NCBI GenBank assembly: GCA_030141605.1
Contig: JAQGDQ010000870.1
Span: forward strand, 1-64,000
Direction of reading: 5' to 3'
Source: Tubiluchus corallicola
Lineage: Eukaryota; Priapulida; Priapulimorpha; Priapulimorphida; Tubiluchidae
Length of the DNA: 64,000 bases
The position numbers were made by a program, and so were the translations under genes. The notes under the pieces were generated by a model, which was not told the DNA's origin, ran no database searches, and saw only the letters and a program-made list of their open reading frames with translations. Within the stretch, counting starts at the first letter, position 1. Each line of letters starts with the position of its first letter. This document shows positions 770 to 60,465 of this stretch, in pieces.

Positions 770-2004
770 ATGAAGTTGTTACTAGTACTGGGACTAATTT
801 TCACGGTAAGCAATAAACATACAGTTTATAGAATGTATATACCATATTTGTCGTGGCATTCTCTTTATCGCGTCATCATCATCATCACCACCACCACTAC
901 CGCCACCGCCACCACCATCACCACCTACACCACCACCACCACAACCACACAATTTTGCAAGTTACCACACAAGTATTTTAAAAAATATACAATAAATAAG
1001 CTTGGCGCCTTCCTTTCATGAAACAGAAGCTCCGAATTTCGTTTTGCAAGGAAAAATTTTCTGGCAAAACTCATGACATCTATTTTGCAACTACACTTGA
1101 GACTAATAATGATCTAAAACTCTCTGTTGAGCTTCGAACCGTAAACCTCTCAACTAATAATGGTGCTGAAAAATTAGCAATGTTTAAATAGCTAGAAGTA
1201 ATAAATACATTTTTTGCTTTGCAGTTGAGTAGAGTAGACTCCAGTGGTGTAAGTTTTGGTACTGGTGCTGGCTACGGAGGCGGTGTAGGCTATGGTGGCG
1301 GTCTTGGATATGGCGGTGGTGCAGGCTACAGTGGTGCGAATTATGGTGGTCAACCGTACGATGTTACATACGACAAGGGTTCCTACGGCGCTCATCTGAA
1401 AGCGGCTTCTGGAGAAAAAGCTGTTGCTGCTGCCGCGAAATCCGCTGGACGTCTGGTGGATGCCAATTATGCCTTGAAGGACAAAACCCATGCGGACTCC
1501 AAAACCAAGGTCCACGCTTACCAACATGCTTACAGGAAGGGCTATCAATGGGCTGAGCCAAAGGAGCACTACAGATACAGCAAACGCAGACCCATTTATG
1601 GTGGATACGGAGGATATGGAGGTGGATATGGATTAGGTGGCTATGGTGGGCACGGTGGATTTGGAGGATATGGAAGTGGCCTTGGTGGTTACGGTGGATT
1701 TGGAGGTGGTTATGGTGGCTATGGTGGATTTGGTGGTTACGGTGGTTATGGGGGTGGCTATGGAGGTTATGGCGGTTACGGTGGCGGCCGCGGTGGTTAC
1801 GGCGGGTTTGGTGGCGGCTATGGTGGTTATGGTGGCTATGGTGGATTTGGTGGTTACGGTGGTTATGGGGGTGGCTATGGAGGTTATGGCGGTTACGGTG
1901 GCGGCCGCGGTGGTTACGGCGGGTTTGGTGGAGGCTATGGTGGATATGGTGGAGGTTACGGTGGATTCGGCGGAGGATATGGAGGTTATGGACGTGGATG
2001 GTAA
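770..2004 (+). CDS. Gene A: secreted Gly/Tyr-rich structural protein (2 coding exons)
   Basis: The coding sequence is join(770..805,1225..2004), 271 aa. The first exon encodes only the front of a signal peptide (MKLLLVLGLIFT). A phase-0 intron with GTAAGC donor and TTTGCAG acceptor follows, and the leader continues as LSRV in exon 2. The mature protein has a short GYGGG region (about residues 27-55), then an Ala/Lys-rich, probably helical region (68-116) ending in HAYRKGYQWAEP. A dibasic SKRRP comes next, and the rest is GGYGG / GGFGG repeats to the C-terminus. Such repeats occur in shell-matrix, cuticle, eggshell and other extracellular structural proteins, and I cannot choose among them. 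The 50-residue region before Pro124 aligns without gaps with gene C. A 117-bp segment of the repeat region is tandemly duplicated. Overlapping frames on both strands are low-complexity shadows. Confidence 0.85.
870..945 (+). repeat. ATC/ACC trinucleotide repeat in gene A intron 1
   Basis: An imperfect CATCATC to CCACCACC run lies inside the intron. It creates a spurious poly-Thr frame continuing from exon 1, which is not considered coding. Confidence 0.75.
1720..1960 (+). repeat. 117-bp in-frame tandem duplication inside gene A
   Basis: Two nearly identical 117-bp units (39 codons) follow one another. Each carries a GCGGCCGC site, at 1784-1791 and 1901-1908. The period is a multiple of three, so the GGY/GGF reading frame is kept. 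Near identity at silent positions suggests a recent duplication or gene conversion. Confidence 0.8.
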
Positions 2005-2595
2005 ATAATTTCCAAATTAGTAGATTCACCAAATCGAAACTAGCCAAAGTTGTTTATTGTTTGTTAAATATTGTTGTTAACTAATAATATTAATTATTAT
2101 AATAACCATGATAACCATTTTTATGTTAGCAAACTGTGATAACAATTACACCTGTACTAATGACTGGTTGTGGGCGAAGCTGAATTATAAAAAGGAGCTC
2201 TTATTTATAATATTGAGGCCTATGTCGATGAGTGATGACGCTGTCTGTGATAGTAAGTTTTCTTTCAAAGGTATACATTCATGATCAATCATTGTTACTC
2301 ATTCTGTCAATGTTAACAGTTTGTATTATTAAGTGACCTGCAGACTGTGTAACTGTGACAAGCTGCTTATAAATAGATATTTTTGCAAAAAATACTTCTT
2401 GTTTTTTTTCGTCTTTTGACTTATAAGCTTGTGATATTACAAATGAATGTCATAACCATAGTAATAAGTAGCAATTGTTTTCAATCAATTTTAAAATTAA
2501 AAATCATTTCAAAATTCAGCACTATAGTTGAGACGTTGAACGAATTTGAAAACATTTACTGGCAAAAGTAAAGCATGTCCCATGATTGCTATTTC

Positions 2596-5116: not shown

Positions 5117-5852
5117 ATGGAAATAATACATTTCCTATTGTTGCTAACAGTAAGTAATTGCATTTTATTTTCTTGTTATTGCAAAATTAGTGCGTCAAAA
5201 TAGAGCAGCAATAATAAGTGACTAAGCTGTAGCTGCTTTGCAAGTGTTTAGATAAGATAAATTGTAAAGATTTTTAGAGCTCAGCTTTGCTCGTGGTTAT
5301 TCGATTCGGTCACATGTATTACAGTTGAGCTGTCTTTTTCTAATCAGTTGTGTCCAATCATTTTGATTTTTATCCCATATGTAGTACCAAATGCTGTTTG
5401 AAGGATTAATCCTTGATTTTTTCACAACTTTTCAGTTGAGTTTGGGATCCGGTTTCAAGGTTCCTCTAAACAACGTCTACTACCACACAACCGGACCACA
5501 CCCGGATAAGTACCTTGGACCAGGATATGTAGGACATGGAGGCCTATCTAGAGCTGCGTATCTACCTATCTTAGGACAACAGGTGGATGGTGTCACCAAC
5601 GTACGACCTCTTTCAGGGCATACCGATCTGAGAACTCAACGAGGCTGGACGAATACGGTTCCTGGTTATGTGTTGGGTTTTGGTGGCAGAGTGGCATACA
5701 GCGATGAGGACCCGGTCAATAAGGTCATATCACACCATCAGGGTGGGTGGGTCCGCGGCGGGAAGGCAAATAATTTTCATTTAGCGAGTTTCAGTCCGTT
5801 TATGAACATCCGAATGGGGTCATACAGGCAGAAATTCCCGGATTTTGGCTAA
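5117..5852 (+). CDS. Gene B: small secreted protein, unknown family (2 exons)
   Basis: The coding sequence is join(5117..5149,5436..5852), 149 aa. Exon 1 encodes MEIIHFLLLLT and ends in phase 0 at a GTAAGT donor. The intron ends in ACTTTTCAG and exon 2 opens with LSLGSG, completing a signal peptide cut about where gene A's is. The mature part is about 130 residues, rich in Gly, Tyr, His and Pro, without Cys. Visible segments include VYYHTTGPHPDKYLGPGYVG, GWTNTVPGYVLGFGG and a C-terminal MGSYRQKFPDFG. I recognise no domain. Its place between A and C and its split leader suggest the same secreted structural group. The first ATG is chosen because it gives the only hydrophobic leader that splices in frame. 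Confidence 0.75.
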
Positions 5853-7468: not shown

Positions 7469-7533
7469 TATAAATAGGCGTCTTCTCCACTTTTATAAAT
7501 TAAGCTGTGGGTAAATGCGTTCGTGTTCAGTGG
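7469..7533 (+). promoter_or_regulatory. TATA promoter, probably of gene C
   Basis: Two TATA-type boxes, TATAAATA at 7469-7476 and TATAAAT at 7494-7500, precede a TCAGTGG initiator-like string at 7527-7533. The second box is 33 nt from the initiator, an ideal spacing. A GTAAGC splice donor follows at 7549. Assignment to gene C is inferred from strand, order and the acceptor just before the gene C start codon. Confidence 0.6.
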
Positions 7534-7548
7534 CTTAGTGGACGAAAG
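7527..7548 (+). other. Gene C non-coding first exon (start approximate)
   Basis: This short exon runs from the initiator TCAGTGG to the donor GACGAAAG|GTAAGC. The matching acceptor is probably CTGCTTCAG at 9251-9259, seven bases before the gene C ATG, giving a 1.7-kb 5'UTR intron. If the upstream TATA box is used, the start would lie near 7499. Confidence 0.5.
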
Positions 7549-9265: not shown

Positions 9266-10576
9266 ATGGATTTCGTCTTCCTCCTCTTCGCCGTGTCCGT
9301 GTTCACTTCTGTTGTCGATGCGGAAGGCTACACAAAAGGGCCGGATTACTTTACAACCGTGATAGCTGGACCTTACACGCACGCTCGTGTTGTAGGAAAT
9401 GGTCAGAAGAGCGCTGTGAGCACTTATATCCGAGAAGGCCATGCGGCCGGCGCTGATTATGCCAGAGACCAGGCCCAAGCGGCGAAAACGTCGGCCCAAG
9501 CAAGAGGATACGACTATGCGCACAGGTATCAAAACTGGATATATATATATATATATATTTTACTCTTACTTAGACTATTAATTATCTAATTATAAATTGT
9601 GCCTAGGCTGCTTTTGAACTTTGATGATAAAATCCTAGACTGGTTCGGTCCAAAAATGAAAAATGAAAAGATTGTGGTTGAGCCTGAATTTGAACCAAAG
9701 ACTTTAGGCAAAGTGATTACCTTGTACGCATTTCACCTGAAGATTCCATCATGGATATTCCAATAATACGTTCTTATAAACAGATGGCACTACAATAACT
9801 GCGCGTTTTATCGCATCAATATGTTTACAGCATTTGTATCGCCAACTACTAAAACTGAGTATTAAACTAATAGAAGTTTATAGACGTTGAATTAAAGATT
9901 TAAAACATATTCGATTGCCACAATTGTAGCTGGCCATGTACCTGCTTATCATTGCAAGTATTACCAATGTAGCCATGCACAAAAACGGTAGAGAATAATA
10001 CAGTGAGTGGATGAGGCTTGCGTGATGTCAACTCAGAAAGTCATCAGTTTTTACTCTCTACATTTAGGTCCTCAGAACTAATGAGAAAACTGACATTGGT
10101 GCAATATTTTCATTTTCAGATCAGGAGCATCATACTATCAACCAAAGTTGTTGTACAGTTACGTCTATGATCAGCCTTTGTTGGGCTACAGAGATGTTAA
10201 TCCCAGCATTCCACACATTGATACAAACATTCAAAAATTGGATTTGCCAATGGTGCCATTTCCGTACCAGCATTTAAATGTACCAGTTAATCATGGACGC
10301 GAATCTACCTACGGTGATGGCACATCTGCTGGTTATCATGGCAAGGAAGATAATGAGTACTTTGACTCCAGATACAGAGCACCCTATGAAAACAATGGGT
10401 ACAGGGTGGAAGAAGGTTACGATGCGCCGTATTATGATCGGTACAATCATTATGGTGTTGACAGTCCTTATGGCGACGAATACAATTCTAAAAAATATAG
10501 AGATGATGGATATGATTACCCTAAAGATTTTCGTGCTCATAGTTATGGCCGACAAAACAATAATCCTTATTACTAA
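9266..10576 (+). CDS. Gene C: secreted Tyr-rich protein (2 coding exons)
   Basis: The coding sequence is join(9266..9525,10120..10576), 238 aa. The leader MDFVFLLFAVSVFTSVVDA is cleaved about after Ala19. Exon 1 continues through an Ala-rich region (about 46-83) and ends in phase 2 at CACAG|GTATCA. Exon 2 begins after CATTTTCAG and completes an Arg codon, then SGASYYQP. The 50 residues ending at that Pro align ungapped with gene A residues 75-124, with about a dozen identities including the paired Gly, Tyr and Pro. The remainder is rich in Tyr, Asp, Asn and Gly (YDAPYYDRYNHYGVDSPYG; C-terminal NNNPYY), a composition seen in sclerotised or DOPA-containing matrix proteins. That role is inference. 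No Cys-rich or enzymatic domain is visible. The ATG at 9266 is preferred over upstream in-frame sequence because it alone opens a signal peptide. Confidence 0.82.
9630..9725 (-). repeat. SINE-like fragment in gene C intron
   Basis: The segment contains GAATTTGAACCAAAGACTTTAG. It resembles the SINE-like copies near 21.6, 41.1 and 59.3 kb, whose reverse strand carries a pol III B-box (GGTTCAAATC). Confidence 0.4.
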
Positions 10577-11979: not shown

Positions 11980-13972
11980 TTACTCTGAGTTTAGATAACC
12001 TGCGTGTTTATTGCTGTCTGCAGTGAAAGCCAAATAGTTCAGTTCATCTAGCCTAATCCGTCCTTGCCGTGAGGATTCTGGTATGTTCTTTGTATCTTCC
12101 TCCTGTAAGACGGCAGCAGCAGGCGAAACGATTTCTGGAAGCTGCTGTGGCGGCGGCGCTGGTTCTTCCGGCAACTCGGGAACAGGCGGAGTGTCCGGTA
12201 CACGGTCTGGAGGAATAATTGGTGGTGGAGGAATGATGGGTCTACCGCCATCAGTGTCTAGGTAACCTTGGTGTTTGAAACTAGGCTGCTGCCAGGCTAG
12301 CCAGTTCAACTGATCTAGAACAAGAGGCGGTTGAGCAGGCTCTGGAACTTTTTGCAAATCTTCTTCAGTTATCGCAGGTAAAGCAGGTGGAATAACCTCG
12401 ATTGGTTCTTCGTCCACAGGTGGTGGAACCTCAACAGGCGGTTGTATTTCGGGCCTGGGTGGCGGCACTATTGGTTGAATTTCTTCTACTGGTGGTCGTA
12501 TGATTGGTTGTATTGGTCGCACTGGCGGAAGAGTCTGCAACGGGCGTGTCGGTTGAACTGGTTGTTCTTGATTATAACCCTGATGTTTGTTACTTGGTTG
12601 TTGCAGAGCAAGCCAGTTTAAGAGATCCAACCTTAGTGGTGGCCGAACTGGTGGAATGTCCATTTCAATCTCATCAGTTATTACAGGTAAAGCGGGCGGT
12701 ACATCCGGTTGTGGCTCAGGAACAACAGGTCGGGTAGGCATGGGTAATGGGGGCAATACATTCGGCTGTGGCTCGGATGGTAGCGGTCGAGGTATCACAT
12801 CGGGTTCTGGTTCTTTGGGTGAAATATCAGGTACACGATTCGGTGGAATGACAGGAGGTTCTGGCCTGATTGGAGGTCTGGGGCGCACAGGCCTTTCTTC
12901 ATCAACATCTTGATAACCTTGATGTTTGAAGCTAGGCTGTTGCCATGCCAACCAGTTCAACTGGTCAAGAACAAGACGAGGCCTAGCCTCTGGAACATTT
13001 CTCAGATCTTCGTCAGTTATCACAGGCAAAGCTGGAGGAATGATCTCTACGGGAGGCTCCTCTTCATCTGGTTCCTCTCCTAGAGTAGGGAGTTCTTCTG
13101 GCGGTGGTGGTTGCTCCCTTCTTGGGGGTGGCGGTTCCTCTCTTCCTGGTGGCGGTCTTCTCCTTGGAGGTAGAGTATCAACATCTTGATAACCATGATG
13201 CTTGTAGCTAAAGTCCTCCTTTCCTAGGTAGTTTAGCTCAAGCTGGGCTGATGCTACACAGATCAACTAAACAATAAAAAACATCTATCTAAAAGTAACT
13301 GCCTTTCAGGCTTACTTGCCATTTTACTTTATTATTAGTTTGTACAGTAATTATATTCCAGTGCATAACACGACACATTCCAAATTAATTAAGCAGTTAA
13401 TCAGTTAACTAAACAGATCAACTAAACACTTAATCAGGCTTTTGCGCATTATTTTTTCTAATCAGCACTAATCATCAATGAATAGCAGCAAAACATAAAA
13501 ATATAGAAATGTTTTTTCTGTATTAAACATTCAAAATTTAATGCAGTAAAGGACAGCTATACTATGCCGTTGTCCTTATATTTCAGCTTTCTTTAATAAA
13601 AATATTAGTTCTTATTGCCGGGTAGTTTTGATTAAAAATCTTGCTATTACCAGTTTTACAGTAAATATTAACTTTGCGACGTTTCGGCCACTAGAGAGAT
13701 TAGTTTTACATTTTATAAGCAGCATTATAGAATTTAAACATCACGCACATTTAAAATGACAATAGCCCATAGAATCTCCTCTGTATGTTCAGCTTCAGAT
13801 TTTTTATAGCCAGAGCCTCATCTAACAAGCATTCGAATTTGTATTTAAGCGTTATTCTAATAATAAAGAGGAGCATATTGTGATTTTTGCACCTATAAAT
13901 CAAAATCTTAATGTTAAAAATGAGAAATCGAATAAGACTTGCCAGCAAGCATAAACCAGTTGATTTCTTCAT
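11980..13972 (-). CDS. Gene D: secreted modular Pro-rich protein with five KHxGY modules
   Basis: The coding sequence is complement(join(11980..13266,13943..13972)), 438 aa. A 35-bp micro-exon (13943-13977) carries 5 nt of 5'UTR and MKKSTGLCLL. The large exon continues LICVASA|QLELNYL, giving a perfect signal peptide. The frames join in phase 0 only if the intron starts at GCAAGT (GC-AG intron). The mature protein has five modules, each with LxLLNWLAWQQPSFKHQGY or a variant; KHxGY falls at about residues 32, 124, 237, 341 and 430. A short element of the type PPALPVITDEDLRNVPE precedes each module from the second on. Spacers are rich in Pro, Glu and Arg. Cys is absent from the mature chain. 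I know no named family with this repeat. An extracellular structural or adhesive role fits the composition but is inference. Gly/Ser-rich frames on the + strand here are shadows. Confidence 0.85.
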
Positions 13973-14138: not shown

Positions 14139-14190
14139 CTGATTCTCTTGTTTGCACACTTCTCTGGGATTACCAAACTCACTACAGTGC
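14139..14190 (-). other. Gene D non-coding first exon (start approximate)
   Basis: On the minus strand a short exon follows the TATA box and ends at GAATCAG|GTAGGA (donor 14138). The next exon starts at 13977 after TTGCTTTAG. The transcription start is placed about 30 nt from the TATA box by rule, not observed. Confidence 0.55.
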
Positions 14191-14211
14191 CGTAGTTTTT
14201 AATCATCTTCT

Positions 14212-14220
14212 CTTTTTATA
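14212..14220 (-). promoter_or_regulatory. TATA box of gene D
   Basis: TATAAAAAG on the minus strand, 81 nt before the first splice donor. This spacing resembles that at gene E. Confidence 0.65.
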
Positions 14221-25047: not shown

Positions 25048-28000
25048 GCGTGTGCGTGTGCGTGTGTCACTGCAGTGGCGTAACAACTAGGCTGGGGGCC
25101 CTTGGACAAATTGAATGAAAGGCCCCATATCGACCCCATTTTTAATTTTGTAAAAAAGTGTTGAAGTAATGAAATTATTATAAAACACAAAAAAATGATT
25201 AAATGAAAAGCGAAATCGAACTTTATTATTATAGCAAATAGATTACAAAATTACTACAAAATTAGATACACCAAAATAGAAATAAGGCAACAAGTAACGC
25301 ATACACAGTGTATGTCAAGTAGAAATCCTGGAATGAAATTGATCTACATAAATTTTGCTGATCGAGCCTTAGTGTTGGCAAACTTGTCTGTAATATTGTC
25401 GACGTCTAGATCTAGGGGAAAACCCTTAAGAGTGGCAACCGGCAATCCTTCGGCATGGAAGTCAGTTCCCCGTTGGTTGCCAAAATTAGTAGCCAATTTA
25501 ATACCAAATAAATACGCATTTTCCTGTCTGTAAATTTGCATGTTTTTAGGGTCAGGCTTAGGGGCCCTAGCATTTGTCTAGCCTTGTCCAATGGGCGTTA
25601 CGCCACTGCGTGTGTGTGTGTGTGTGTGCGTGTGCGTGTGCGTGTGCGTGTGTGTGTGTGTGTGTCTTAACCATCATTATCATCATCGATGCTATTGTTT
25701 TGCTCATTTCTGAAATGGCCATTAGCATACAGACTCTATTTTTGCACTTTAGTCAACTGCTACTAGCATGGTAATTATGATGGGTATGATGGTAATTTAT
25801 CTTCCACTACACATGTCATTATTTGATTAATGTGGAGCTATAAAATTACATTGTATTTGCTTAGAATCACTACAGGTGTAACTAAACCTTATGGTGCCAA
25901 TAAAATCGTTTAGGCTTCATTATGCATGTAATTGAGTGCGTTTGAAAGCTAAACAGTCAAAAGTAATTTATCCACAAATTTTTTTTCTTATATGCATATA
26001 TCACCGGAGCACCGGAACTGTTATGAAGTGTAAATATGAAAAATTAACTTTTCACGTTTTTCTTCTTACGGAAAAATCAGTCTGCCACACGTAGCGCATA
26101 CAGCATATGAATCCTGCACTGAATGTCGCAGACTTAATTTGTAACTGTGCCACTGTCTACGGGGCATAAATATCAACGCAAATATTATTCTTCATTAATA
26201 ATATAATTTAATAGAATTTATTATTGTATTCAACACATAATCTTCATTAAATTTTGGTACATTTTAGAATGCGTTTCAGCTTGCACAGACGTAAGCGGTA
26301 TTAATTTTGTGTTGAAATAGCAGAGGGTGACACGGTTTTGAAGTGCGCTACATACACAACCTGAAGCGCATCCATGTTTAAGGACAAGGACCTCTGTAAC
26401 CAAAATAGATGATGATGATGATGATGATAAGTCTTTATTAGCCTCTTTTTGCAGGCAAAAATTTCTGTACAAACATTATACAATTTTACATAGACACTAG
26501 AGTGAATTCTACAATATTGCATGTTTCGCATTCTGTAATTAGCTTTTCTAATTTGTGCATATAACATTATTTATAGTGATGTTAAACAAGAAGTAGTGAA
26601 GTGAGTGCTAAAATTAAGGTTATTAATGAAAAACATAAATAACGTTTATTTAACAAATATTATTTTTTAAAAAAAATCTGAAATGTCAAACATATCTTTT
26701 TCTAGCAAAAAAGTGTACGAAGGGATAGCTGTGCCATCCATGTTTTTTCACGGCTTAGGATTTAATGTTGCGTTAACTGCTAAGTAGCCTAAATTAAATT
26801 TTTATTTGCCCAAAGTTTCAAACGGAAAGGAAACGAAACGTTGACAGCTCCCAACAATTGAAAAAAGGCCATTTGCTGGTTTTACATTCTGTCAAAACCC
26901 ATACTTTGCAAAAAACAATAAGTCGCTCATTTCACGTTTTGTAACTTATAGGAGAAGGTTAATGCAGTAGTAGAAAAAATTATTATTCAATCGACAAAAC
27001 TAGTGGTACTTTAAATTCACTTTACCCAAACTTTGCAAAGTTGCTCCAATATTGCATTATCTTCTTTGAGAGAATTTTCTCAACGGCAGTATACTGGTCG
27101 CTTAGCAACGGCGTACCGAGTACGTACACTCTCTCAGCCGTATGTGTAACACCCATCCACTTAGGACTCTTCAAATACTCTGTCCTATGCGTGAATAAGT
27201 ACATAAAAACTGGAATGTCACGCCTTGCAAAATGAAAGGCCTGAATGTCTTGCTGACATAAAAAATTCCAGTCACCAATCATGCCAATAATGCCTTTTAT
27301 GTTAGTGTCATTTAGATACGGCCAATCATTGTATTCAAATCCCGTTGCGCTTGCGACAACTGCTGTCCAATGCCTGGGGAATATTTGTGCAACAGCCTGG
27401 TCATAATCTCCTTTGCTTATGTTTAAATATTCAGTCATCGGAAACAACTGCGGGAAGCCATTAGCCGCGTACGTGGCGCCCTCATCCTTGCAGCTCCCTA
27501 GTAAAATTTCGGTCCGTTCTTTAAAATGACCACGCTGCAGCGAAATCATTGGCGCTTCCTTAAGAAAAAAGCCATCAATGGTAGGCACAAACGGATTATC
27601 AAAAATTCCTTTTTCTTGTTCCTGTTGCCACTGTTTATCACAGATTTCTTCGAAGCTAACATTTCGCAGACATTTAATGATTAGCGCAGCATCAGGAAAA
27701 TGGCAATCAGTAAGCTTAGCGAGATGAACTGATCGTTTTAGGGCAAGCTCTCTTGGTGAGAATGCCCAAGGCATGATCGCGGCACCACTTTCCATAATTG
27801 CTCGCTGAAATAAGTCCCTACTGAACGGTGATAAAAGATGATAGCTGACGCTAGCAGAACCGGCACTACCACCAAATAGGCTGATCCTCTCACTGTCACC
27901 TCCAAATCTCTCTGCGTTCTCCCTTATCCACTTCAGGGCCAGGCGCTGGTCCAACAGGCCCACATTTCCGGGAGATTCTGGGCTATTAAGATACAGAAAC

Positions 28001-28527
28001 CCTAAAGCACCCAACCGATAGGCAACAGAGAAAACTATGACGTCGCCGGTAACGACGAAGGCGTCAGGAATGATGGCGGCAGTTCCGGTCATGAACCCAC
28101 CACCATGAATGTAAACCAACACGGGCTTCTTAATGTTGCCACTGGGAACCCAGACATTTAGGTATAAACAGTCTTCGCGCATATCTTCACTCCAAGTTTC
28201 ATATTCACTGACCTGATGTATGAGCTTGTCTAGCATCTCATTATTAACTAGGGAAATCCTTTCTTTTTGCGCACAAAATGGAGCCAGCGAAGTGGCGTTG
28301 ATGACATCAGACCAAGGTCGGATTGGTATTGGCGGCATGAACCTGAGTGTACCAATTGGTGGTTCTGCATATGGTATGCCGAAGAAGTAAGAGAGATCTT
28401 TATTCAAAACTGTTTTCACTGCCCCTTGAATTTTGCCAGTTGTGGTGGATACCACGGGGTCACTCAGCTGATCAGAGTGAGTTACTGGTGTTAAAAGGAA
28501 CAGTAAAAGCCACATTGCAGTCATCAT
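24671..28527 (-). CDS. Secreted type-B carboxylesterase (2 exons, complete)
   Basis: The coding sequence is complement(join(24671..24890,27026..28527)), 573 aa, the usual length for the family. It is an alpha/beta-hydrolase cleaving carboxylic esters. A signal peptide (MMTAMWLLLFLLTPVTHS) opens it. Family motifs appear in order: FFGIPYAEPPIGTLRF, EDCLYLNVWVP, the oxyanion-hole segment HGGGFMTG, the nucleophile FGGSAGSAS (GxSxG), the acidic-residue motif CKDEG and the His motif MGVTHTAE. The triad Ser-Glu-His is therefore present. Exon 1 ends YWSNFAKFG at a GTAAAG donor. The C-terminal exon (NPNQNF, ERWPHWTTEG, ARNCEYWRTLVP) lies 2.1 kb away after TGCATTTCAG, in matching phase 2. No ER-retention signal or membrane anchor is visible, so secretion is likely. 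The substrate cannot be inferred. Confidence 0.92.
24984..25070 (+). repeat. (GT)n microsatellite, left of hAT-like element
   Basis: A GT run grades into GCGTGT units directly abutting the element at 25073. Confidence 0.9.
25073..25608. mobile_element. hAT-like miniature element in carboxylesterase intron
   Basis: The ends are inverted: CAGTGGCGTAAC at 25073-25084 and GTTACGCCACTG at 25597-25608. Subterminal GGGGGCCC-type stretches and TTGGACAA are also mirrored. CAGTGGCG-type ends are typical of hAT transposons. At 536 bp it cannot encode a transposase; a 65-codon minus-strand frame (25344-25541) may be a remnant or chance. It sits between two GT microsatellites, so the 8-bp target duplication expected for hAT elements cannot be read unambiguously. 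Confidence 0.6.
25609..25665 (+). repeat. (GT)n microsatellite, right of hAT-like element
   Basis: A GT/GCGTGT tract like the one on the left flank. The element may have inserted into one pre-existing microsatellite. Confidence 0.85.
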
Positions 28528-33709: not shown

Positions 33710-36700
33710 ATGCAGTACTTCATCTCCAGAAACATGGCCATTATTGGCGCTTGTGGACTGGCAATTGGTGTCGCTGTCGTCGGCGTCGTAGTCGGCAAGA
33801 TTTCTAGAAAATGTGAAGCCGCTGATGCTGTTCCTTCAAAACAACCGCCAACTGTAACCACAGCAACAACAACTGACAACGCAACTGCCAGTGTGACTAC
33901 ACAAACTCTTAATCCTACAAACGAAAGTGTGACAGCAAGCCCAATGCCTACAGAACGACCAGACCTGCGCCTGCCAGGTAATATTACACCTGTCCGCTAC
34001 AAACTCTACTTATGGCCAGATATAGATAATTTCACAGCTACAGGTTCTGTGATTCTAGAATTCAAATGTCTTCAAACTACAAGACAGATCACTGTACATG
34101 TTAGCAAAAAACATTTATTTATTGACGCTCTCAAGACCCAGTTGATTCACGAGAGAAAACATGTAAATATCGAAAGCCAGTATTACGAAGAGGAAAAGGA
34201 ATTTTATCATGTTTTTGTCAGCAAAGCATTGTCAGAACTGGAAGATTATGAGCTGCATTTAACGTGGAATGGTATTTTTTCGGGCGATCTAAAAGGGCTT
34301 TATGGCAGTTTTTACACAGATGGGAGCGGGAAAACGAAGTAAGTTAGTCATAATTATGTTTTGTTGTTATACCCTTTCTGCTTCTTGAATAGCGGTTTGG
34401 TACATGTAACAATGATTGAATCTTTCTATGCTATGGTCGTCTCATCTACGGTCATTTCAAGCATGCACTTAAAATAGAACAGAAAGTGTACCAAATGTAT
34501 GGGCAAAGCTAACTAGAGTGATTCAGGCCCTTACAATAACTATAGAGTCAGAGGAAACCAATTCTACTTACAGCCATATTATCGATTTTTTTCGAAGGTG
34601 GATGGCTTCTACGCAAATGCAGGGTCCATATGCCAGACGGGTATTACCTTGCCTGGACGAACCGTATTACAAGGCAACGTTCAGTTGCACAGTAGTAAGA
34701 AAGAAGCATATGGTGGCTCTTTCAAACACAGACATCCAGTCTACTGAAACAGTGTGAGTTTGACATAAATAAATTAGATATATGCCAGAAAATATAGTAA
34801 CACACAATCCTGTGCTAATTTACAAACAAATCACTAACGATTATATTGCGTTTACTGTTTAAGATAAACGTCCTAAGAAAGATACTTATTTAACCTAAGC
34901 ACATACACTCAAAATTAAGCAATAGTGAAATTTTATCACAATTTTTTTCTCAAGTTTTCCTCCTTATGTCGAATGTCGATTGACGTTTCATCTACTAGCT
35001 ATGACTCATTGAATAGACTCATTTTCGTGCACGACAAAGCTGGAATATGGCATTCAACTTAACTTTGGCCACGGCTATTCCCCTGAATCCCTTAGCGTCT
35101 ATTCAAAAGCCGAAATAATTCGGCGACTCTATTCATACATGTTAACACAGCTGCACGAAATTTCAATAGAGAAAATATGATAAAAAAATTATCCCCCGGT
35201 ACCTAAAAAAGGATTGTTTAGCTATAAGCTTATGAAAAGTTTTTACTTCAGAGAACTTATTAACATAACTGAATCAGGATAATTCAAGATAATGATAGAT
35301 ATGGAGTGGCATGTCAAGTAAATTGCATATGGAGTGAGGCTCTAGGGACGTAACGGGTGGATACTTTTGTGTTTTAGCCCAGGACATCATGATTGGGTTG
35401 CTGATGTTTATGAAGAAACTCCAGTCATGTCAACCTACCTTCTTGCCTTTGTTATTTGCGAGTTTCAGCATTTGAACATTACAACTGACAATGGTGTTAA
35501 GGTAAGAAACCTTCCAAAAATGCGACCGTAGCTACCATGTCGTTCGTTAAATTAAGGAAGAACACTTATGATCTTTCACAAAAATTCATCTTCTATAATC
35601 AAAACCTAAATTACCAAGAACCTCTGCATTAAGGCTGTTGTCAGAAATTATTGTGCTTTTACCCGATTTCAGGATTAACTGTATCTGCTGTGGGTGAAGC
35701 TAGTTCGTTGTTCTGCGACAATGCCGTAACCAGTGGTAGCATAAGCTCTTCCAAAACTGACTTAGAAAATCCTTTCACGTGATGTACGCCAAAGGCCATT
35801 TGAAACAAACAGCAAAGGAGTCGAAGATATCCAAACGAGTCTGATTTGGATTAGCATGCTACCATTAGTTGGGTTGTGTCATTAGAGTAGCAGAGCTAAC
35901 TGGCACCTTGCGGAGGATCTAATTAAGCTGGTAAACCTAGTTAAGCATAATAACCGCTTGTTTTACCAAAGGAACTTTTGTAACGCATGTAGAGTTACTA
36001 AATTTCTAAAATCTTTCCACCGGTATTCTATCGCTGGCGTTTTCTTCAATTTAGATACGAGCTTGGGCAAGACCAGAGTTGATTCATCAAGCTGAGTATG
36101 CACTTTTTGCAACTGCACACATCATTGAACAGTTTGAGGCGTTGTTTAATGTAAAATACGCACTTAGTAAATCAGGTATGTTATATAACAAACAACGATT
36201 ATTTAAACAAAGTCTTAGGTAATTGTCAGTGATAATTACACATTTGAAATTTTGTTAGTGCACAGGTCAATTGTTGCATTAATTTTGAAAATGCAATGAT
36301 AACAGCAGTTGTGGAAGGTAATGAAATCTTGGAGAAACGAGGTACATGTAGTGGAATGCGAACGGGTGGTTGTAATGGCACCGGTAAGCATGTCATGATG
36401 ATGGGTAGTGATACTGGTAGCGGTAAAGGCGACAAGGATGATTCTGATGATAGTGATAACGTTAGTGATGATAATGATAATAATAGCAACCATGAATATG
36501 TTATTGGTATGATAATTATGATGATGTTGCTGATAGTGAGTGTGGTGGTGGTGATGATGGTGGTGGTGGTGGTGATGGTGGTGGTGGCGGTGATGATAAT
36601 GATGACAATGACAATAATAAAGACGTTAGTGTTAATGTTTATGAGGACAGTGTTCCTTATGATGATGATAACGATGCTGATGATAATGGTAATAACAAAG

Positions 36701-36732
36701 CATCATCATCATCATCATCATATTCACCATTG

Positions 36733-36774
<42 letters not shown>

Positions 36775-39700
36775 CCATCATCATCATTAATATTATTACA
36801 TCTTCCAGATCTCATTGCGATTCCTGATTTTGCATATGGAGCAATGGAAAATTGGGGACTAGTAACTTACAGGGAAGAATACATGCTTTACGATCCAAAG
36901 ATTTCCACTGTTGCTGACAAGAAATTGATGTGCAGAGTAATTGGACACGAGTTGGCACACATGGTAGCCTGGAAACTACAAACTTTCTTTAGGCTTATTC
37001 TTTACATGAGGACAGTTTTACAGAGGGGGTATTCTTTAAACTGGGAACAGTTTCATAGACTTGTCGCTTAGTTTCACAGTTTACTTAACAAGCGTGGTTC
37101 AACGCTTAATCTAAGTAACTGTGATTGGATTAACAACTATTATCGAATAACAATCGTTATCGATCAGATGTTATTATTAAAGTTTATTGAATTTTTCATA
37201 TAAAAATCATCCGAAATAATCCGAGAAAATACTGAAAATTATTATTGAAAGAAAATGAAGCGAGGTTTTTGGAAGCAGAAAAAGGGAAAGACTACAAAAA
37301 GAAATGACAGCGGGCCAGGGAGTAGAGAGAAAAGAGTGAGTGACTGAGAGAGGGAAAGAGAGAGGGTGGGAGAGGGGAGTGAAACAGTGCTACAACAAGT
37401 CTGTGAAGTGTATTTTGTTTAAAATAATCTGTTTTTAATTGTGAAATGTTTTGTTGCTACACCGCAGTCAACCATTTATGTAATAAATAAAAAACAATAC
37501 AAATCAAGAACCGTCTGATAACGTTAACGCCTTTCCTTGTTTCAGTGGTTTGGTAACCTGGTAACTTGTGACTGGTGGGACCATATCTGGTTAAATGAAG
37601 GCACCGCAAGATTTTTCGAGTTCATCGGCTGTGACTTCACTGACCCAACGTGGATGCTGGTAATTTCGTAATACTGTACAATCGTATTTATGATAAAATA
37701 CTTAAATGTTAGTGTATATTATACTAACCATCTGTGACTTAAATGTGACTTTAAGTGCGAGTGTAATGTGTCATATTTGCTACTATTTGTTAAAATTGTC
37801 TATTGTTACACATTGTCTCAAATTTGGCCATCAATAAAAATACCATCATCGTCAGCTGTACACTGTGTGGTTCATTTTCTACGAGTTATTCTGAGCGTTC
37901 CCTTCTTTTAGAGGTCAGTGTTCATTTGTATTTGATAAAACGTTTCCAGGAGGAGCAACATTTCGTCCTGGATAATTTCCCACCTGCGCTAGAACTCGAT
38001 GCACTGGCCTCCTCACATCCAACTGTGATGGATATCATGACAAATGCGGAGATTGAGAGCACGGGGGATGCAATCACCTCCTCAAGAGTAAGAATGCTTC
38101 TTTTAATTGCATCTTTCAAGTGTGAAGTCTCACTTAGCACTATCAATAAATCTTGTCTTTTTGTGACTCTCTAACTCCATTCTTACTAGGTTAAAGAGTG
38201 TTCTTAGCTACTTTCGAAAAAGCTTGCTCGCTTGTTTCAGTGCACTTCTTCATTTTTATGTAAGATGACATTTCAGTAAATTTAAAACAACTATGTAGTG
38301 TAATTATTACCAGTTCATAAATTATATAGTCTCATAAAGTGATTATAAATTTACTAATACGAAAAAATAGTTAATCAAAATTTCTTCTTAAATTTAATTT
38401 AGAAGATTTTGATGCGACTATTAACGAAAAGAAAGATAGAAGTTTCCTTGTATTCATGTCACATCCGACATAAAAGTAAATTTTCATTTTTGTGTTTTAG
38501 GGGTCGTGTCTTTGCTTAATGATGGAAAGCATGATTGGAAAGGAAGCTTGGTACCATGGAGTAGAAGTATATATTTTATAATTAAAAGATAAAAGCCTGT
38601 CCTTGTGTTTTTTATGCCCACTCACACACTACAGTGAACCCCAAAGTGGCATACCAAGAGAACCAACAAAAGGTTTTAGGCCTCGGAAAGGTTTTAGGCT
38701 AAGTCATAGCCCACTCCCAAATATGGCGGCCAAATGACGTCTAAAAGAACATCTGCACCGCGGGCGAATTCAGCTAGTAATCTATTAAACATTAGTTTTG
38801 TGCAGTTCCGTGTATGTCCTGCTTAAGTTTCAACAACGAGAAAAATTGCTATAATATTTAAGAAAAGGGCTTCCTAATAGCAATAACTTTTTTGTTCATT
38901 CGTTTATTTTTTGCATTCGTTTAGCATCATTTAAACCGATTGGCTTTTGCTACCTCAACAACTGATGATCTTTGGGAATCACTACAATGGGTAAATATCA
39001 GCTTCTTATGCTAGGGATCACAAGGAATCAAAATAGCATTTGAAAATATGAACGTTTGTGGAACTGAATTGTTTAGTTTCGCGAGTTTTTTGTTGCTATA
39101 GTTTTGTCATCAAGCTCCACGGTGAACCCCTCTACCATCTTTATTGACTTATTGACTTATTTAATGCAAATCTAAGATGATGTTATAGATCTTTTGTCAT
39201 CCGCGTTTTTTATAAATATGTTTATTTTCCCATCACCTTTTGTATACAGAACAAAACTCATTAACATACCTTAAGTACTCTAATACAAAGCTGAGACATT
39301 TATAATTACATATCTATAGTTTTACAGTGCGTTAAGTGCAATCTAATGGTGCAAAATGTTAAATTAACGTCTACTGAATCGGCTTAAAGCTCTAATAAAT
39401 CTCTGCGTTATATTAAAGGTAGCTTTGAATTCGTCAAGATTGAAAAGTAAATTACAGTGTAATAATGTATGGATTTTGGTTTCGATATTTAATTCATTAA
39501 TATTAACTGGGAGAAAGTTTGAATTATCTTCCGTGTTTAATTAATTATTAAAATTTCGTTCTAGGCAGTTGAAGATTTAAAAGTGGAGTTAGAAGGAAGA
39601 ACCGTGAAGGAAATAATGGACACGTGGACGTTGCAGATGGGATATCCGCTTTTAATTGTAACAAGAGATTACGGCAACGGCAGAGTCACCGTTGCACAAA

Positions 39701-46870: not shown

Positions 46871-48187
46871 TTAATATCCTCCGCGTCTAATGTCGACAGG
46901 TAACCTACTCTTTGGCCCGGAATGTACAGGCAGTGATTCAACGTGAACTGGTTGGAAGCGCACTCCACCAGGTGTCTCAAATGCATACGCAGCACCCTCT
47001 TCTACAGCTCCCTCGCCAGAAGCAGTCTGCTGGTATTGCTGGGTGGCATCTTGAGCAGCTTGCCTGGTAGCATCCAGTTGTATTCCAGCTTCGCCAGCTC
47101 CGACTCCAACTCTTTCAGCAGAACTGGATTCCGTCTGCCGAGCGTTCCCAGAACTGTATCGTGTTCCAATAACAACTTGCTGTTGTCGTCCATTTATTGC
47201 TGGACGTGGAGCTGCCGCAGCCGCTTCTGCTCGGGCTCCATTGAAGTCGAATCCTTCGATGTTGACGTATCTGTCTCCAAATCGTTCAATTCCGAAAGCT
47301 TCAGAGTCGATATTTCCAAAATTATTGGGGTTGATGTCGCCGCGGCCAAAACCCTGGATTCCGACTGACCTTATGTTGGAAGTGACGGCAGGAAAGCGCC
47401 TTACGGGTGCTGCATCTACTGCAATGCGTCTCGCTTGTACTGTGGTAACAGCTGGGGCGGCGCCAACAGTTCTGGTAACTCCAACATTTCCAACAAGACC
47501 ACTGCCAATAGTGCCACCAACACCTCTGTAGCCATTAAGGCCCCCATAGCCTCCACCATACCCATTGTAACCTCCACGGTTGCGGATTCCTTGGAATCCT
47601 CTTCCACCAAATCCGCCATATCCACCCCCCAATCCGCCAAAGCCTCCACCATAACCTCCCCTTAATCCCCCGTAACCACCACCAAGTCCACCATAACCAC
47701 CATAGCCACCTCCTAGCCCACCATATCCACTTCCAATCCCACCATAACCACCTCTGAATCCACCACCAATCCCTCCAAATCCTCCATAGCCGCCCCCTAA
47801 TCCACCATATCCTCCACCTATTCCACTATACCCACCTCTATACCCACCACCAATTCCCCCAAAATAGCCACCCCCTGTTCCACCATAGCCACCCCCTATT
47901 CCACCATAGCCACCCCCTATTCCACCATAGCCACCCCCTATTCCACCATAGCCACCCCCTATTCCACCATAGCCACCCCTTATTCCACCATAACCTCCAC
48001 CAATTCCCCCATATCCTCCACCAGTTCTTCCAATTCCACCATATCCTCCACTAATTCCACCATATCCTCCGCCAATACCACCATATCCGCCTCCAATTCC
48101 ACCATATCCGCCTCCACCTAGTAAGAATGACCCTAGAGTACAAGCTAGGGAGCAAGACATCACACTCGTTAGGTACAGCGTCTTCAT
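46871..48187 (-). CDS. Gene E: secreted Gly-rich protein, single coding exon
   Basis: The reading frame encodes 438 aa. A hydrophobic leader (MKTLYLTSVMSCSLACTLGS) opens it. Residues of about 24-235 are GGYGGIG / GGYGGLG heptapeptide repeats, several copied as identical 21-bp units (47881-47985). The C-terminal half is non-repetitive: Ala/Val/Arg-rich, then QARQTESSS-like Gln/Ser/Ala-rich sequence, then a terminal segment containing AAYAFETPGGVRFQP. That segment loosely resembles the Gly-x-x-aromatic-x-x-Pro motif of genes A, C and F. An acceptor (TTTTCTTTTAG) sits one base before the ATG, so the upstream exon is non-coding. A matrix protein of a Gly-rich extracellular material is likely from composition. 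The precise material is unknown. Frames on the + strand here are shadows. Confidence 0.85.
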   Translation of the reverse strand: MKTLYLTSVMSCSLACTLGSFLLGGGGYGGIGGGYGGIGGGYGGISGGYGGIGRTGGGYGGIGGGYGGIRGGYGGIGGGYGGIGGGYGGIGGGYGGIGGGYGGTGGGYFGGIGGGYRGGYSGIGGGYGGLGGGYGGFGGIGGGFRGGYGGIGSGYGGLGGGYGGYGGLGGGYGGLRGGYGGGFGGLGGGYGGFGGRGFQGIRNRGGYNGYGGGYGGLNGYRGVGGTIGSGLVGNVGVTRTVGAAPAVTTVQARRIAVDAAPVRRFPAVTSNIRSVGIQGFGRGDINPNNFGNIDSEAFGIERFGDRYVNIEGFDFNGARAEAAAAAPRPAINGRQQQVVIGTRYSSGNARQTESSSAERVGVGAGEAGIQLDATRQAAQDATQQYQQTASGEGAVEEGAAYAFETPGGVRFQPVHVESLPVHSGPKSRLPVDIRRGGY

Positions 48188-49505: not shown

Positions 49506-49562
49506 CTGTTACAAGTATGGCACAAGCTTTCTTAGTACTCAAATCGTAGTGTTAAGCAAATG
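49506..49562 (-). other. Gene E non-coding first exon (start approximate)
   Basis: The minus-strand exon runs from about 30 nt after the TATA box to CTTGTAACAG|GTAAGA (donor 49505). It joins the acceptor at 48189-48190 across a 1.3-kb intron containing the AAT array. A TCATTTG string near the expected start resembles an initiator. Confidence 0.6.
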
Positions 49563-49588
49563 AGCGAGGAGGCTTTGCCATCTTCTTT

Positions 49589-49596
49589 CTTTTATA
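49589..49596 (-). promoter_or_regulatory. TATA box of gene E
   Basis: TATAAAAG on the minus strand, 90 nt before the first donor. Confidence 0.65.
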
Positions 49597-53808: not shown

Positions 53809-53875
<67 letters not shown>

Positions 53876-53876
53876 G

Positions 53877-53915
<39 letters not shown>

Positions 53916-55870: not shown

Positions 55871-58800
55871 TCATTTCGTGTATTTTGGGACGTATTTAGT
55901 CTCTGTTGGAGGTACTGTTACTGTGTAAGCGGTTTTAGCTCCGTTGGCGCCCTCTTGTAAAGCGGAATCGTGTTTCTGCTCTCGGAGCACGTGATCACCC
56001 TTGCCGCGGTCGTAACCGTAGCCGGCTCCGCCAAATACCGCACCACCTTCGCCGAACGGGTGTCCGTAATTACCGACCTTCCTGCCGCCTAGCTGGGCGG
56101 GAACTGGATTAAAGAAAATATGACCGTATTGGTAGCCGTATCTGAAACCTCTAGAAATGTCGTATCCGGCTTTCTCTACCCTATACGCGGATGCGTTTCT
56201 AGCTATTGTGTAGTTTTTAAACTTTCCACGCTCGTGCTGCTCTGCACTACTTTTTGTCTCATATTCTTCGCCTGATCCTTTTCCTCCTTTTTCGAAATTA
56301 TCACTCTGAATGATTTTGAGAGGCTTCGGTTTATAACTCGGATCATCGGCAGGACCAGCATGTGTTACTCCGTAATCTGGAATGGCGACCCTTTTTTGTG
56401 ATACTTGGACAGAAACTCCGTCATTCGGATCGTGGTAGATCTCCTGAGGTGCTGGGTCGGCTGGAACAGGTTGTTGCTCCGGCACATCTCGGCTGATGAA
56501 CGATGGTGGTGCTCCAATTGAGTAACCAAACGGGGTATTGTAGACCTTCATACTGGATAATGTGCCTGGGTCACCCAGGAATACCTGTTGTTGAACAGCT
56601 TGTTTAGCTGGTTGCAGAGAATCTTGAGTCACTTGAAAAGCTTGTTCTTCTTGAAGTACAGCTTGCTGAACTGGTTGGAAAACCCTTTCCTGCTGTAAAG
56701 TTGGATCTGCTGCTTGAAGAGTCTTTAGCTGCGGGTCCTGGAAAGCCTGCTTCATGATTTGGTATCCTCGGACTGGTTGCAGAAGGTCTACTTGGGCAAC
56801 TACCGGAACTCGTGCACGTGTGATTTTTGTCCCGGAGCTGAAAACTGGTGACGAGAAACTAGGTTGGCTACTCAGAACTGGAAGCCTGTCGACTATGTTG
56901 GTGCTGGCTTGGCCTTCATCGCCAAAATTCACATTTGTATAATCATTGGTTATGGTGACCGCATAACCATCGTCGCGAGGTAGTGAAGGTGCAGAGTTTG
57001 GCTGCTCTCTTGCAATGGCACTGGTCATCACTGTCAACCATGATGGGTAGCTGTGTTGCGCCGCCGGATAATTTGGATATGGCTGCACCACAGAGTAACT
57101 TGGTATTGCTGCTGCTGTTTGAATATTTCCTGTATCAAGCACTCCTGGTCTGGCGTATGTGGGTGGGTTGACTGGTGTAGCAGATCGTGGCACAAAATCA
57201 CTAATGGCTGATCCTTGACTAAGTGTCACCTATAACAATTAAATAGAATTACTATTAGATAGAGATTGTATTTTGCATACAAAAATGTACCATTATATAA
57301 TGTGAATCCATCATTATGACCTATGAACTAGACTTTTATCTCAGCAGATCTGGTGAAAAAATCTATTACGTATTAGCATCCCTTTCAGAATCAGAGTTTT
57401 TGTTAAAGTCATACAGTCAGTTGCACGACGTCTCCATCCGATGTTGGCGTGTCACCTTTAATGCAGAAATGTCAAAGTCAAAACTCACAGTCAATATAGT
57501 CAACTCTCGTTCATGCTACCCAAGAAATCTCTAGTGGACATACGTCAGAAGCACTTGCGCAAGTGACGCTAATGTTTTAGGATAAGCTGATGTACAGGGT
57601 GTTACATAAACTTTTTGCTAGTAGGCGTACAGTAACTACGAGTAATATTTACATCATTATAAAGTTTTGCTGAATCAATAGAGAATCTATCAAGACCTCA
57701 GTATTTAGCGTAGAAGACCGCTGCGTCTCGCGCTATCTGCAATACGTACATTGACAGGTATCGAAAGGACATCTACAAGATGTATTGGACGATCTTGTGC
57801 TTCGAGTTTCCGATCACATCTCACAAGACTGCAGGCTGTGCGAGCTGCGTGACACCTTTACATCAAAAAATTTTGAGGACGCGATAGATTCTCTATTAAT
57901 TCAACTCAGTTTGATATTATAAATTGTTCTGTGCTATCAGAGTATAACACGTAACCTAGCAAAAGTTATGTTATACTCTATATAATCTAAAGTTTAGGAT
58001 ATACGCGTGGAACGGGAGCAGGCATCATCAGGAAAATTCAGTCAACTTATTTATTGCAGTAATCTATACTACAAAAGTGCAAAGTGTTCACATAGTCTTC
58101 TTGCACAAGTAGGTTTTATGACAAGTAGGCTATATCAATTCTACACCCACAAACTATATTAAATTATTACGTATCCAACGCTATTTCGGCATTTCTGCAA
58201 TAATAAACTTGATTTAAAGTCAGATTTAAATCCAGCAAACAAGACAAAGCAAAGCCGACTGTAATTAACAAACTATACTTATATAATGGATATTGTTATT
58301 ATTATTACTGTGCTTTACCTTAAATACCACGCGCCAGGTAGGGCAGAGAGCAGGTACCATTTTTTAAATTATTGGTACGACCCGCCTGTGGTATCGAACT
58401 TCACGATCTCCCAGACGGAAAACAGACGCGTAATTTATTACACTATAACGTCTGGTTGGAGAAGTGTGAATATTGTGATTAAATCCTGTAACTTTCGACA
58501 ATTTCATTAAAATCGATTTTGGCATGACCACTACAGTTATTATTCAACATGCCAAATCATTTAGGTTTAGGTCTTCAATCAACACAACTGCAAATTAAAC
58601 AGAAGCTTTAGAAAGTTAAGTGAAATATAAAATTTCTTTAATTTAGGTAACTAATTGAATCGATAACTGTTTTTTTTTGTTCTAGCTCTACATTTTAGCC
58701 ACTCATACATTCAACTTAATATGTTCGGTGACAAAATACTCAAAAATGTTATACATGACACACAATGAGTTCGCCACCTCATTAAACATTTGACAGAAAA

Positions 58801-60465
58801 CTGAGCGTCTGTTGTGCGGCCCAGGTAATACAAGTCAACCGTTAATGCTTTGGTCGTGCAGAGAACACATGTATATATTAATGAGATACAAATGTTAATT
58901 ACAGGTGTTTTGGTGATGGTTCAAATCCACAGTTCATTAAATTTTGGTATTAAAGTTGAAAGACAGGAAATGTGAAAATGTGGTATACAGCCTTAATTCG
59001 AGCTATAGGGGCCTTCTGCTTACAAGGCGTGCCATAGACCAATAGGCCACAATATCACCACGTTATAATTTATGTCCAACCGAATTCAGCATTTCCAGTG
59101 TTAGATCGCTCAAGCTAAATTGATTCTAACTAATAGTTATTATTTTTGAATCATTTTGAACCAAAAGATTTTAGTAGGAAATTAATTATTATAATCTTAA
59201 TATCAAGATCACAATTAATGATGGTACAAAACCAAAATTAACTAAATTTTGGTAGAAAAGTCAACTGAAAGACAACGAATGTGAAAAATTTTTAATACCT
59301 CCTCTTCGATTTGAACCAGGGACTTTTTGTTTAAAAAGCAGATGCCTTCGACAGCTAGGCCACCGTATTCTAGTGATCAAGGCAGCACAAAGTTCATCTC
59401 TTATAGCTGACCAACTATTGTTGTGAACAATCTAACAATCTAACATTGGAAATGTCGAATTCAGTTGCCGAATCTATAAGGGATGAAATTTGGATGAGCT
59501 GTTTTGAGATGGTTGTTCACTGGTGGAAACTGCGTTTACTCAGTACCTTTGAAACAGGGTTGCTCCGGTTAGTAACGTTTTCAACTCGGGTTCGAAGCTG
59601 GGTACTAAACCCAAATCGCTAGTCTTCTGGACGTTGTTGTGGTTGTCCTCGTTGTCATTGTCGCTGTTGTTGTTTGGGATAATCTGTTGAAAAAAGCCTA
59701 AGGCTCCGTGAACTCGCAATAGATTGTCATGAAACTTTACAGGACTATACAAGAACGAATTCTGCATCGATCGGCAAAGCCAGATTTTCGATCAGTCATT
59801 TTGAATTCAAAGCTAAAAGACATCATGGACATCAAAACAATTACATCAAGTTTAGTGACCTTGGCATTAAGATTTTCTCCGGGAGTTTTCTAACGACATG
59901 GAAAAACCGCACAGTGATCCTGTAGTCCTTTCTTTCATCTTCCTAATCATATGAAGCAGCACAAACTTGCCCGTTAAGTGACACTGACATTAATAAGTTG
60001 TCACAAGCATTATCACAGCATTTTGATCTTGACTTTTTTGTCAAAAACACTACCGCACCGGAGCGCAAAGTAACTCAACTAAGTCCGATCACTCCGGTGA
60101 CGGAGATTATTTTAAAAATTTTGAAATGGACACCGGCATTTTTTCTCTGGCTTTTTTCTCTTCATCATCCCAAACACCGCTACACTTTGAATTTCAGCTT
60201 TGGCTTTTCATTTTCTCATCATCCCAAACACTGTGAGTGTAATCTCTTCATCGTCAGACAGATATGACAACAGGGAGAACAAAACAAAATGAATTTTAAT
60301 GCGGGCAGGCGAGTCACAAACGTATCGCAAATAAACCTCGTTACTGTATTCCCAGAGTTTGGAAATGAAAATTGAAATACTGATCCATCTGTTGACCGTT
60401 TCTCGAATATTTCCTAAGGATAGTAATACTTACGATAGTGAAATAAGCAGGGTAAATAGACTCAT
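55871..60465 (-). CDS. Gene F: secreted Q/P-rich protein with Tyr/Gly-rich C-terminus
   Basis: The preferred model is complement(join(55871..57218,60434..60465)), 459 aa. The distal exon encodes MSLFTLLISLS and ends in phase 2 at CACTATC|GTAAGT. The main exon, entered after ACACTTAG, continues QGSAISDF, giving a good signal peptide. The alternative acceptor TTATAG at 57230 would open with VTLSQGSA in phase 0 and would need another, unseen first exon. The main exon is sure, the leader exon less so. Residues of about 15-150 are Pro/Ser/Tyr-rich, 150-220 Gln-rich (LQPAKQAVQQQVF) and 230-320 Pro/Asp-rich. A charged Ala/Lys/Tyr region then ends in YGYQYGHIFFNP (371-382), matching the motif of A and C. 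The tail is Gly-rich (GGAVFGGAGYGYDRGKG) with Lys/Ala/Tyr. Two N-glycosylation sequons (NYT, NAS) are visible. Confidence 0.65.
57597..57985. mobile_element. Foldback/MITE-like element in gene F intron
   Basis: Imperfect long inverted arms of roughly 90 bp surround a centre of about 210 bp. The inner arms match best: TGAATCAATAGAGAATCTATC near 57671 against GATAGATTCTCTATTAATTCA near 57881. The outer arms share TTACATAAACTTTTTGCTAG against CTAGCAAAAGTTATGTTATA. No coding capacity is seen. Target duplication was not resolved. Confidence 0.55.
58935..59075 (-). repeat. SINE-like copy 1, minus orientation
   Basis: Reading the minus strand, GTGGCCTATTGGTCTATGGC resembles a pol III A-box region. 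GCAGAAGGCCCC, a degenerate B-box region (CTCGAATTAAGG) and then the shared tail CACATTTCCTGTCTTTCAAC follow. Confidence 0.55.
59180..59430 (-). repeat. SINE-like copy 2, tRNA-derived head, minus orientation
   Basis: On the minus strand the A-box-like GGTGGCCTAGCTGTCGAAGG (59345-59364) lies about 30-40 nt before the B-box GGTTCAAATC (59308-59317), as in tRNA-derived SINEs. The tail holds CATTCGTTGTCTTTCAGTTG and ends near the palindrome ATCTTAATATCAAGAT. It is the best-preserved copy in the window. Confidence 0.6.

Follow-up and report, generated by a model that had tools for sequence, protein, structure and literature searches.

In vertebrates, SCPP genes code for clustered, secreted and disordered matrix proteins, rich in Pro/Gln or in Tyr, and show a 5′ untranslated region (5′UTR) exon and phase-0 introns; shematrins are Gly-rich proteins that end in a basic tail of the RKKKY type. 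The shematrin genes of the pearl oyster Pinctada fucata are arranged in tandem (PMC4759782), and in Hydractinia a cluster of Shematrin-like/Prisilkin-like genes is expressed in a stolon cell type alongside chitin synthesis genes (PMC11876637). In the CPR cuticle genes of a mosquito, the signal peptide is interrupted in 86% of the intron-bearing genes and the first exons measure 3–36 nucleotides (nt), with a median of 12 (PMC2259329), and for the periostracum of a snail, Tyr residues with Gly neighbours were argued to be well suited as substrates of a peroxidase (PMC6007483). Here, we describe six genes, named A to F, in a window of 64,000 nt of Tubiluchus corallicola DNA (contig JAQGDQ010000870.1, positions 1 to 64,000 of the forward strand). 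We consider it reasonably probable that they encode secreted, Cys-free scleroproteins of one invertebrate, which would set into an extracellular composite; most likely, they are matrix proteins of an extracellular material which, by analogy, is probably cross-linked through Tyr.

The six genes had been proposed in a preliminary description of this DNA, and all of them could be rebuilt from the DNA as in-frame models with no internal stop. On the plus strand, gene A (770..805 joined to 1225..2004) encodes a precursor of 271 amino acids (aa), gene B (5117..5149 and 5436..5852) one of 149 aa, and gene C (9266..9525 and 10120..10576) one of 238 aa; on the minus strand lie gene D (13943..13972 and 11980..13266; 438 aa), gene E (46871..48187; 438 aa in a single coding exon) and gene F (61673..61711 and the main exon 55871..57229; 465 aa). 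All the joins are in frame, and the introns are of the GT-AG type in A, B, C and F and of the GC-AG type in D. The genes fall at 0.8–14 kb (A–D) and at 47–62 kb (E–F), with a gap of about 33 kb. The length of their frames is not due to chance, since 20 stop-to-stop frames in the window reach 140 aa, a number that includes opposite-strand shadows and the frame of a cholinesterase-like gene, compared to a mean of 0.8 in 60 Markov shuffles, in which the longest frame measured 234 aa. In Pfam, the matches of B, D and F were all far under the cut-offs, and for A, C and E there was no match at E-values up to 1. Neither Rfam matches nor tRNAs were found in the window. Altogether, eight genes are recognisable in the 64 kb, and the fact that six of them code for secreted, Cys-free proteins with no Pfam family is in keeping with a locus that serves an extracellular material.

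The N-termini of the six precursors are of the secretion type, weakly so in E. By a crude ad hoc rule (a hydrophobic 8-mer and small residues ahead of the cut, with a threshold of 2.0), the signal peptide previously assigned to every gene was recovered in A, B, C, D and F, and E remained just under the threshold (1.89); the same rule was passed by 10 of 64 control open reading frames, a set from which A–F had not been removed. The scarcity of Cys turned out to be complete in the mature chains (0 of 1,889 residues, with cut sites chosen by us), as the two Cys of the D precursor and the two of the E precursor are all located in the removed N-terminal part. The mature chain of A contains 45.6% Gly and 17.1% Tyr, that of E 37.8% Gly, that of C 15.1% Tyr and 8.7% Asp, and that of D 24.7% Pro; F is mildly Pro/Gln-rich (9.7% and 8.5%, respectively). 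In A, 31 of 43 Tyr, and in E, 22 of 33, have Gly on both sides. The low-complexity character attributed to the whole set is, therefore, evident in A, C, D and E, mild in F, and not clear in the 134 aa of mature B (15.7% Gly, 6.0% Tyr), whose composition makes it the odd one out; B would belong to the set by its position, secretion and exon layout alone.

Relatedness was evaluated on 36 pairs of segments. The A–C pair reached a z of 9.2, and every other non-overlapping pair stayed at or below 3.6. The latter value was that of B against the N-terminus of F (4 of 300 shuffles), a short Pro/Gly match that we set aside; the pairs F_M/F_C (z 6.2) and C_N/C_C (z 3.7) were also dropped, because their segments overlap by construction. 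The similarity of A and C spans 82 residues aligned with no gaps, 21 of which are identical. In A, it is found at 1348..1593 (+; GQPYDV...SKRRP; coordinates derived from the exon frame), within exon 2, between a Gly/Tyr-rich stretch and a Gly/Tyr-rich tail; in C, it begins in exon 1, after the signal peptide, and continues in exon 2, ahead of a Tyr/Asp-rich tail, so that it is split by the intron in C and uninterrupted in A. The alignment score of 84, compared to means of 31 in full shuffles and 37 in shuffles in blocks of 10, was matched by none of 5000 shuffles of either kind, and the Gumbel p was 3e-6 for the full shuffles and 1e-4 for the block shuffles, the second being moderate given the 36 pair tests. 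As judged from their sequences, A and C are homologous through this region, which we define here as a new domain (A/C domain) and which appears to match no named family, either in Pfam or in a protein collection queried with C and A+C. A hidden Markov model (HMM) of the two sequences, run against 2,017 frames of the window, matched A and both exons of C (frames 9077-9586 and 10094-10573), C being itself one of the two sequences of the model; the next match had an E-value of 0.31, and no third member was found among these frames. The preliminary description had extended the common region to F as well, but this part of the claim had to be abandoned: F gave a pairwise z of 0.0 to 0.3 against the A/C region, it scored under many shuffled sequences with the HMM, and when the Gly-rich flank of A was retained z was 1.5 (53 of 500 shuffles). 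The tail of A also contains a 117-bp tandem repeat (1705-1952), with copies 98% alike, which is a recent internal duplication.

Four of the genes, A, B, D and F, share the organisation of their beginning, namely, a first coding exon of 10–13 codons (36, 33, 30 and 39 nt, respectively) followed by a phase-0 intron that splits the signal peptide, a layout that is absent in C and E. The first exon of A (MKLLLVLGLIFT) ends at the donor CACG/GTAAGC, that of B (MEIIHFLLLLT) is joined to 5436 through the donor GTAAGT, and that of D (MKKSTGLCLL), once joined to 13266 across the intron 13267-13942, yields the signal peptide MKKSTGLCLLLICVASAQ. To these similarities, the 3′ splice sites in front of the start codons can be added. 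When all the 2,335 ATGs of the window were ranked, with weights that are our own approximation of the animal consensus, a strong site was observed 6 nt upstream of the ATG of A (top 0.8%), 5 nt upstream of that of D (top 0.8%), 1 nt upstream of that of E (top 0.3%) and 14 nt upstream of that of F at 61711 (top 1.8%), and none before those of C (14%) and B (44%) or before a possible start of F at 60465 (54%). These sites, therefore, suggest a 5′UTR exon, or trans-splicing, in A, D, E and F. The signal-exon layout shared by four genes and the A/C domain strengthen the reading of the window as an extracellular-material locus.

A pattern scan for a TATA box followed by a donor-like site gave candidate promoters with putative 5′UTR exons for C (7469..7548, +, then AAG/GTAAG), for D (TATAAAAA; 14139..14220, −, then CAG/GTAGG) and for E (TATAAAAG; 49506..49596, −, then CAG/GTAAG), with 77 to 88 bases from the TATA box to the donor-like site. 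Pairs of this kind were also listed ahead of B and F, and C has another one, but there was none in the 769 bases upstream of A; however, with TATAAAR at a frequency of about 0.5 per kb and strand, such pairs are expected by chance. A promoter motif common to D and E, TATAAAA(R)AGAAGATG, was rejected: the D–E score was reached by 19 of 500 shuffles, the D–C and E–C comparisons gave nothing (443 and 302 of 500 shuffles reached the score), and, when up to 3 mismatches are allowed, the window contains 13 occurrences of the motif versus an expectation of 3.9, most of them not near the starts of A–F.

Searching a collection of 5.8 billion proteins with F gave one match, P0001, among the best 7,994 candidates scored, with a query that carried the start at 60465 given in the preliminary description. 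P0001 is 461 aa long, is 82% identical to F over 99%, and comes from a single contig of 1,663 bases with the tag ‘lgn’, which we take to indicate an assembly of public reads. Its N-terminus, MLEAGGALFLLSL (with the beginning given as MLEAGGALFLLSLVTLCQGSAISD), agrees in 12 of 13 residues with the exon 61673..61711 (MLEAGGAFFLLSL), which lies outside the interval 770..60465 previously assigned to the cluster. The alignment with P0001 scored 2004 with this exon and 1940 with the alternative in-frame exon 60433..60465 (−; MSLFTLLISLS), which has no strong 3′ splice site upstream. Translation of F, thus, most likely starts in the exon 61673–61711, as the comparison with the relative and the splice site indicate; the exon 60433–60465 is probably unused, and an alternative promoter may be located there. 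The intron separating the main exon of F from 61673 measures 4,443 bases; since the contig of P0001 spans the join within 1,663 bases, it is most simply explained as a spliced transcript of a relative, which would, then, apparently transcribe the gene, and a short intron in the relative or a processed genomic copy may be the alternatives. The best-conserved part of F consists of the residues 331–390 (57 of 60 identical). No relatives of F were found in GTDB genomes and IMG/VR. Homology searching, proposed earlier as a check on the six proteins, was in this way productive for F; in the same collection, nothing was found with C and A+C, no match was found in PDB with B and F, and none of A–F exceeded a Pfam cut-off.

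Exon 2 of D codes for one partial module, immediately after the signal peptide, and four full copies of 48–50 aa, with Pro-rich linkers between them. The copies have the C-terminal pattern LDxLN[WY]LA...S.KHxGY, and in their final 28 residues 12 to 23 positions agree between copies; the repeat was seen at the protein level and it is not among the DNA tandem arrays reported. Compared with Pfam only, the module seems to match no named family. E is formed by repeats of the GGYGGI type, with 21-bp repeats in the DNA, and then by a less repetitive tail.

On this basis, the chains of A–F would enter the endoplasmic reticulum by their signal peptides and, after export by an epithelium or a gland, would set extracellularly as a composite. 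Cross-linking by a tyrosinase or a peroxidase could act on the Gly-Tyr repeats of A and E and on the Tyr-rich tail of C, and the Pro-rich linkers of D, with their Lys-His-x-Gly-Tyr modules, and the Pro/Gln-rich chain of F might work as extended linkers or fillers. The tissue common to the six products, the cross-linking and the material are, then, inferred. In composition, A and E can be likened to the sfc-6 to -8 proteins of Lymnaea, which are secreted, Gly/Tyr-rich proteins with Gly-flanked Tyr and proposed peroxidase substrates (PMC6007483). The short first exon, the intron in the signal peptide, the nearly complete absence of Cys from the mature chains and the clustering are also features of the insect CPR genes (PMC2259329, PMC1626468); by contrast with the mosquito genes, the first exons measure here 30–39 nt, that of F (39 nt) lying just beyond the range of 3–36 (PMC2259329), and the R&R Consensus chitin-binding domain gave no Pfam match in A–F at E-values up to 1. 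As in Hydractinia, genes for a signal peptide and Gly repeats are grouped, but a single repeat type and a tandem origin were described there, whereas the compositions of A–F differ widely (PMC11876637). Since similar clusters have been published (PMC4759782, PMC11876637), the kind of locus to which A–F appear to belong, by analogy, is already known, and the A/C domain and the D module would be its parts with no match to a named family. None of the A–F proteins is named in the literature that we found, including a report on low-complexity domains of the Nautilus shell (PMC8257504), which is no proof of absence.

The space between the two groups is not empty. For 14300-46701 and 48200-55401, divided into 33 pieces for each strand, a six-frame Pfam scan was run (elsewhere, gene models only were compared); at E-values up to 0.001, its only matches were to a cholinesterase-like gene, to an M1 aminopeptidase and to a single reverse transcriptase. 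Together with the introns, these enzyme families suggest that the DNA is of animal origin. The cholinesterase-like gene (27025..28527, −) matched PF00135 with an E-value of 1e-127, and two further alpha/beta-hydrolase models on the same strand; its PDB matches are cholinesterases. The motifs FGGSAG, DEG and a late TH..E are present, so that the gene possibly encodes a working esterase; the cholinesterase motif is presumably FGESAG, from which FGGSAG differs. The second gene is represented by a part (33710..37071, +) and extends further; PF17900 was found at 33710-34342, PF01433 in one and ERAP1_C in three of the 33 plus-strand pieces, and the frame 36496-37071 contains GAMENWG and HELAH, which we take to be M1 aminopeptidase motifs. 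A reverse transcriptase-like frame at about 51177-51548 (+), with PF00078 in 1 of the 33 plus-strand pieces, is probably a fragment of a long interspersed nuclear element (LINE). In addition, a telomere-like interstitial (ACCCTA)n array was observed at 21989-22083, and at about 59.3 kb and 14.6 kb (−) there are, by eye, sequences resembling tRNA-derived short interspersed nuclear elements, on the basis of a B-box motif.

As they are separated by the two enzyme genes, A–D and E–F are better considered as two groups than as the continuous cluster described at first, and for the same reason the term ‘dedicated’, applied to the locus, goes too far, even though the reading of an extracellular-material locus fits six of the eight genes. 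Several results weigh against this reading. The enzyme genes that part A–D from E–F are unrelated to it, and no tyrosinase, peroxidase or chitin-binding family was found in the two intervals scanned with Pfam. The composition of B is not that of a typical structural chain. Moreover, C and A+C had no homologue at E-values up to 1 among the 5.8 billion proteins (110 and 1,144 candidates scored, respectively), and structure prediction gave no usable model or fold for the A/C domain (mean predicted local distance difference test score, pLDDT, of 37) nor for F (pLDDT 29).

A part of these results can be read differently, that is, as a chance neighbourhood of independent secreted orphans, in which A, C, D and E are structural and B and F have separate roles, for instance in reproduction or in mucus. 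The lack of a clear sequence relation outside the A–C pair, the ordinary composition of B and the intervening enzyme genes are in line with it; by contrast, the concentration of secreted, Cys-free proteins lacking a Pfam family in 64 kb, a split signal peptide common to four genes and a splice site before the ATG, also in four, weigh against it, and we regard such a neighbourhood as possible, but rather unlikely. A molluscan locus for shell matrix proteins of the shematrin type would be a special case of the scleroprotein reading, with which its probability overlaps, and seems unlikely. As in the tandem clusters of the pearl oyster (PMC4759782), secreted, Gly-rich, repetitive proteins are encoded here, and XGnX units are numerous in A (25) and E (35); however, unlike those clusters, A–F are mostly unrelated to each other, and B, C, D and F contain 0, 2, 0 and 3 units, so that a signal peptide combined with XGnX repeats is found in A, in E with its weak signal peptide, and in none of the others. 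Moreover, A ends in YGGYGRGW and E in VDIRRGGY, neither of them of the RKKKY type, and similar genes are known from a cnidarian (PMC11876637). Finally, that some of the models are not genes, but low-complexity frames kept open by GC-rich repeats, as the long open frames present in other frames and on the opposite strand in the A and E regions might suggest, is very improbable, given that F is conserved in a relative, the joins of A to D restore, in frame, either a signal peptide or a domain, the D module repeats as protein and not as a reported DNA array, and none of the 60 shuffles produced frames of the length seen in D, E and F.

Within the scleroprotein reading, the relation among genes that look so different could have a further explanation, which we put forward as a speculation of low probability. 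One secreted ancestor, with a 5′UTR exon and a split signal peptide, might have been duplicated locally, keeping its promoter and signal exon, and its mature exon might have been replaced or rebuilt from repeats, in an invertebrate locus similar to that of the SCPP genes. The likeness lies in the clustering of genes for secreted, matrix-type proteins rich in Pro/Gln or in Tyr, in the putative 5′UTR exon and in the phase-0 introns; the SCPP are a vertebrate family, and no relation to them is expected. If true, chemically different components of one composite would come from one locus. The signal-exon layout would make the common descent of unlike-looking, clustered matrix proteins testable, and other genomes can be searched with the A/C domain and with F as corrected at its start. 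Should A–F be co-expressed, they would provide the compact parts list of a material made of two Gly-Tyr chains, one Tyr-Asp chain, one modular Pro-rich chain and one Pro/Gln chain.

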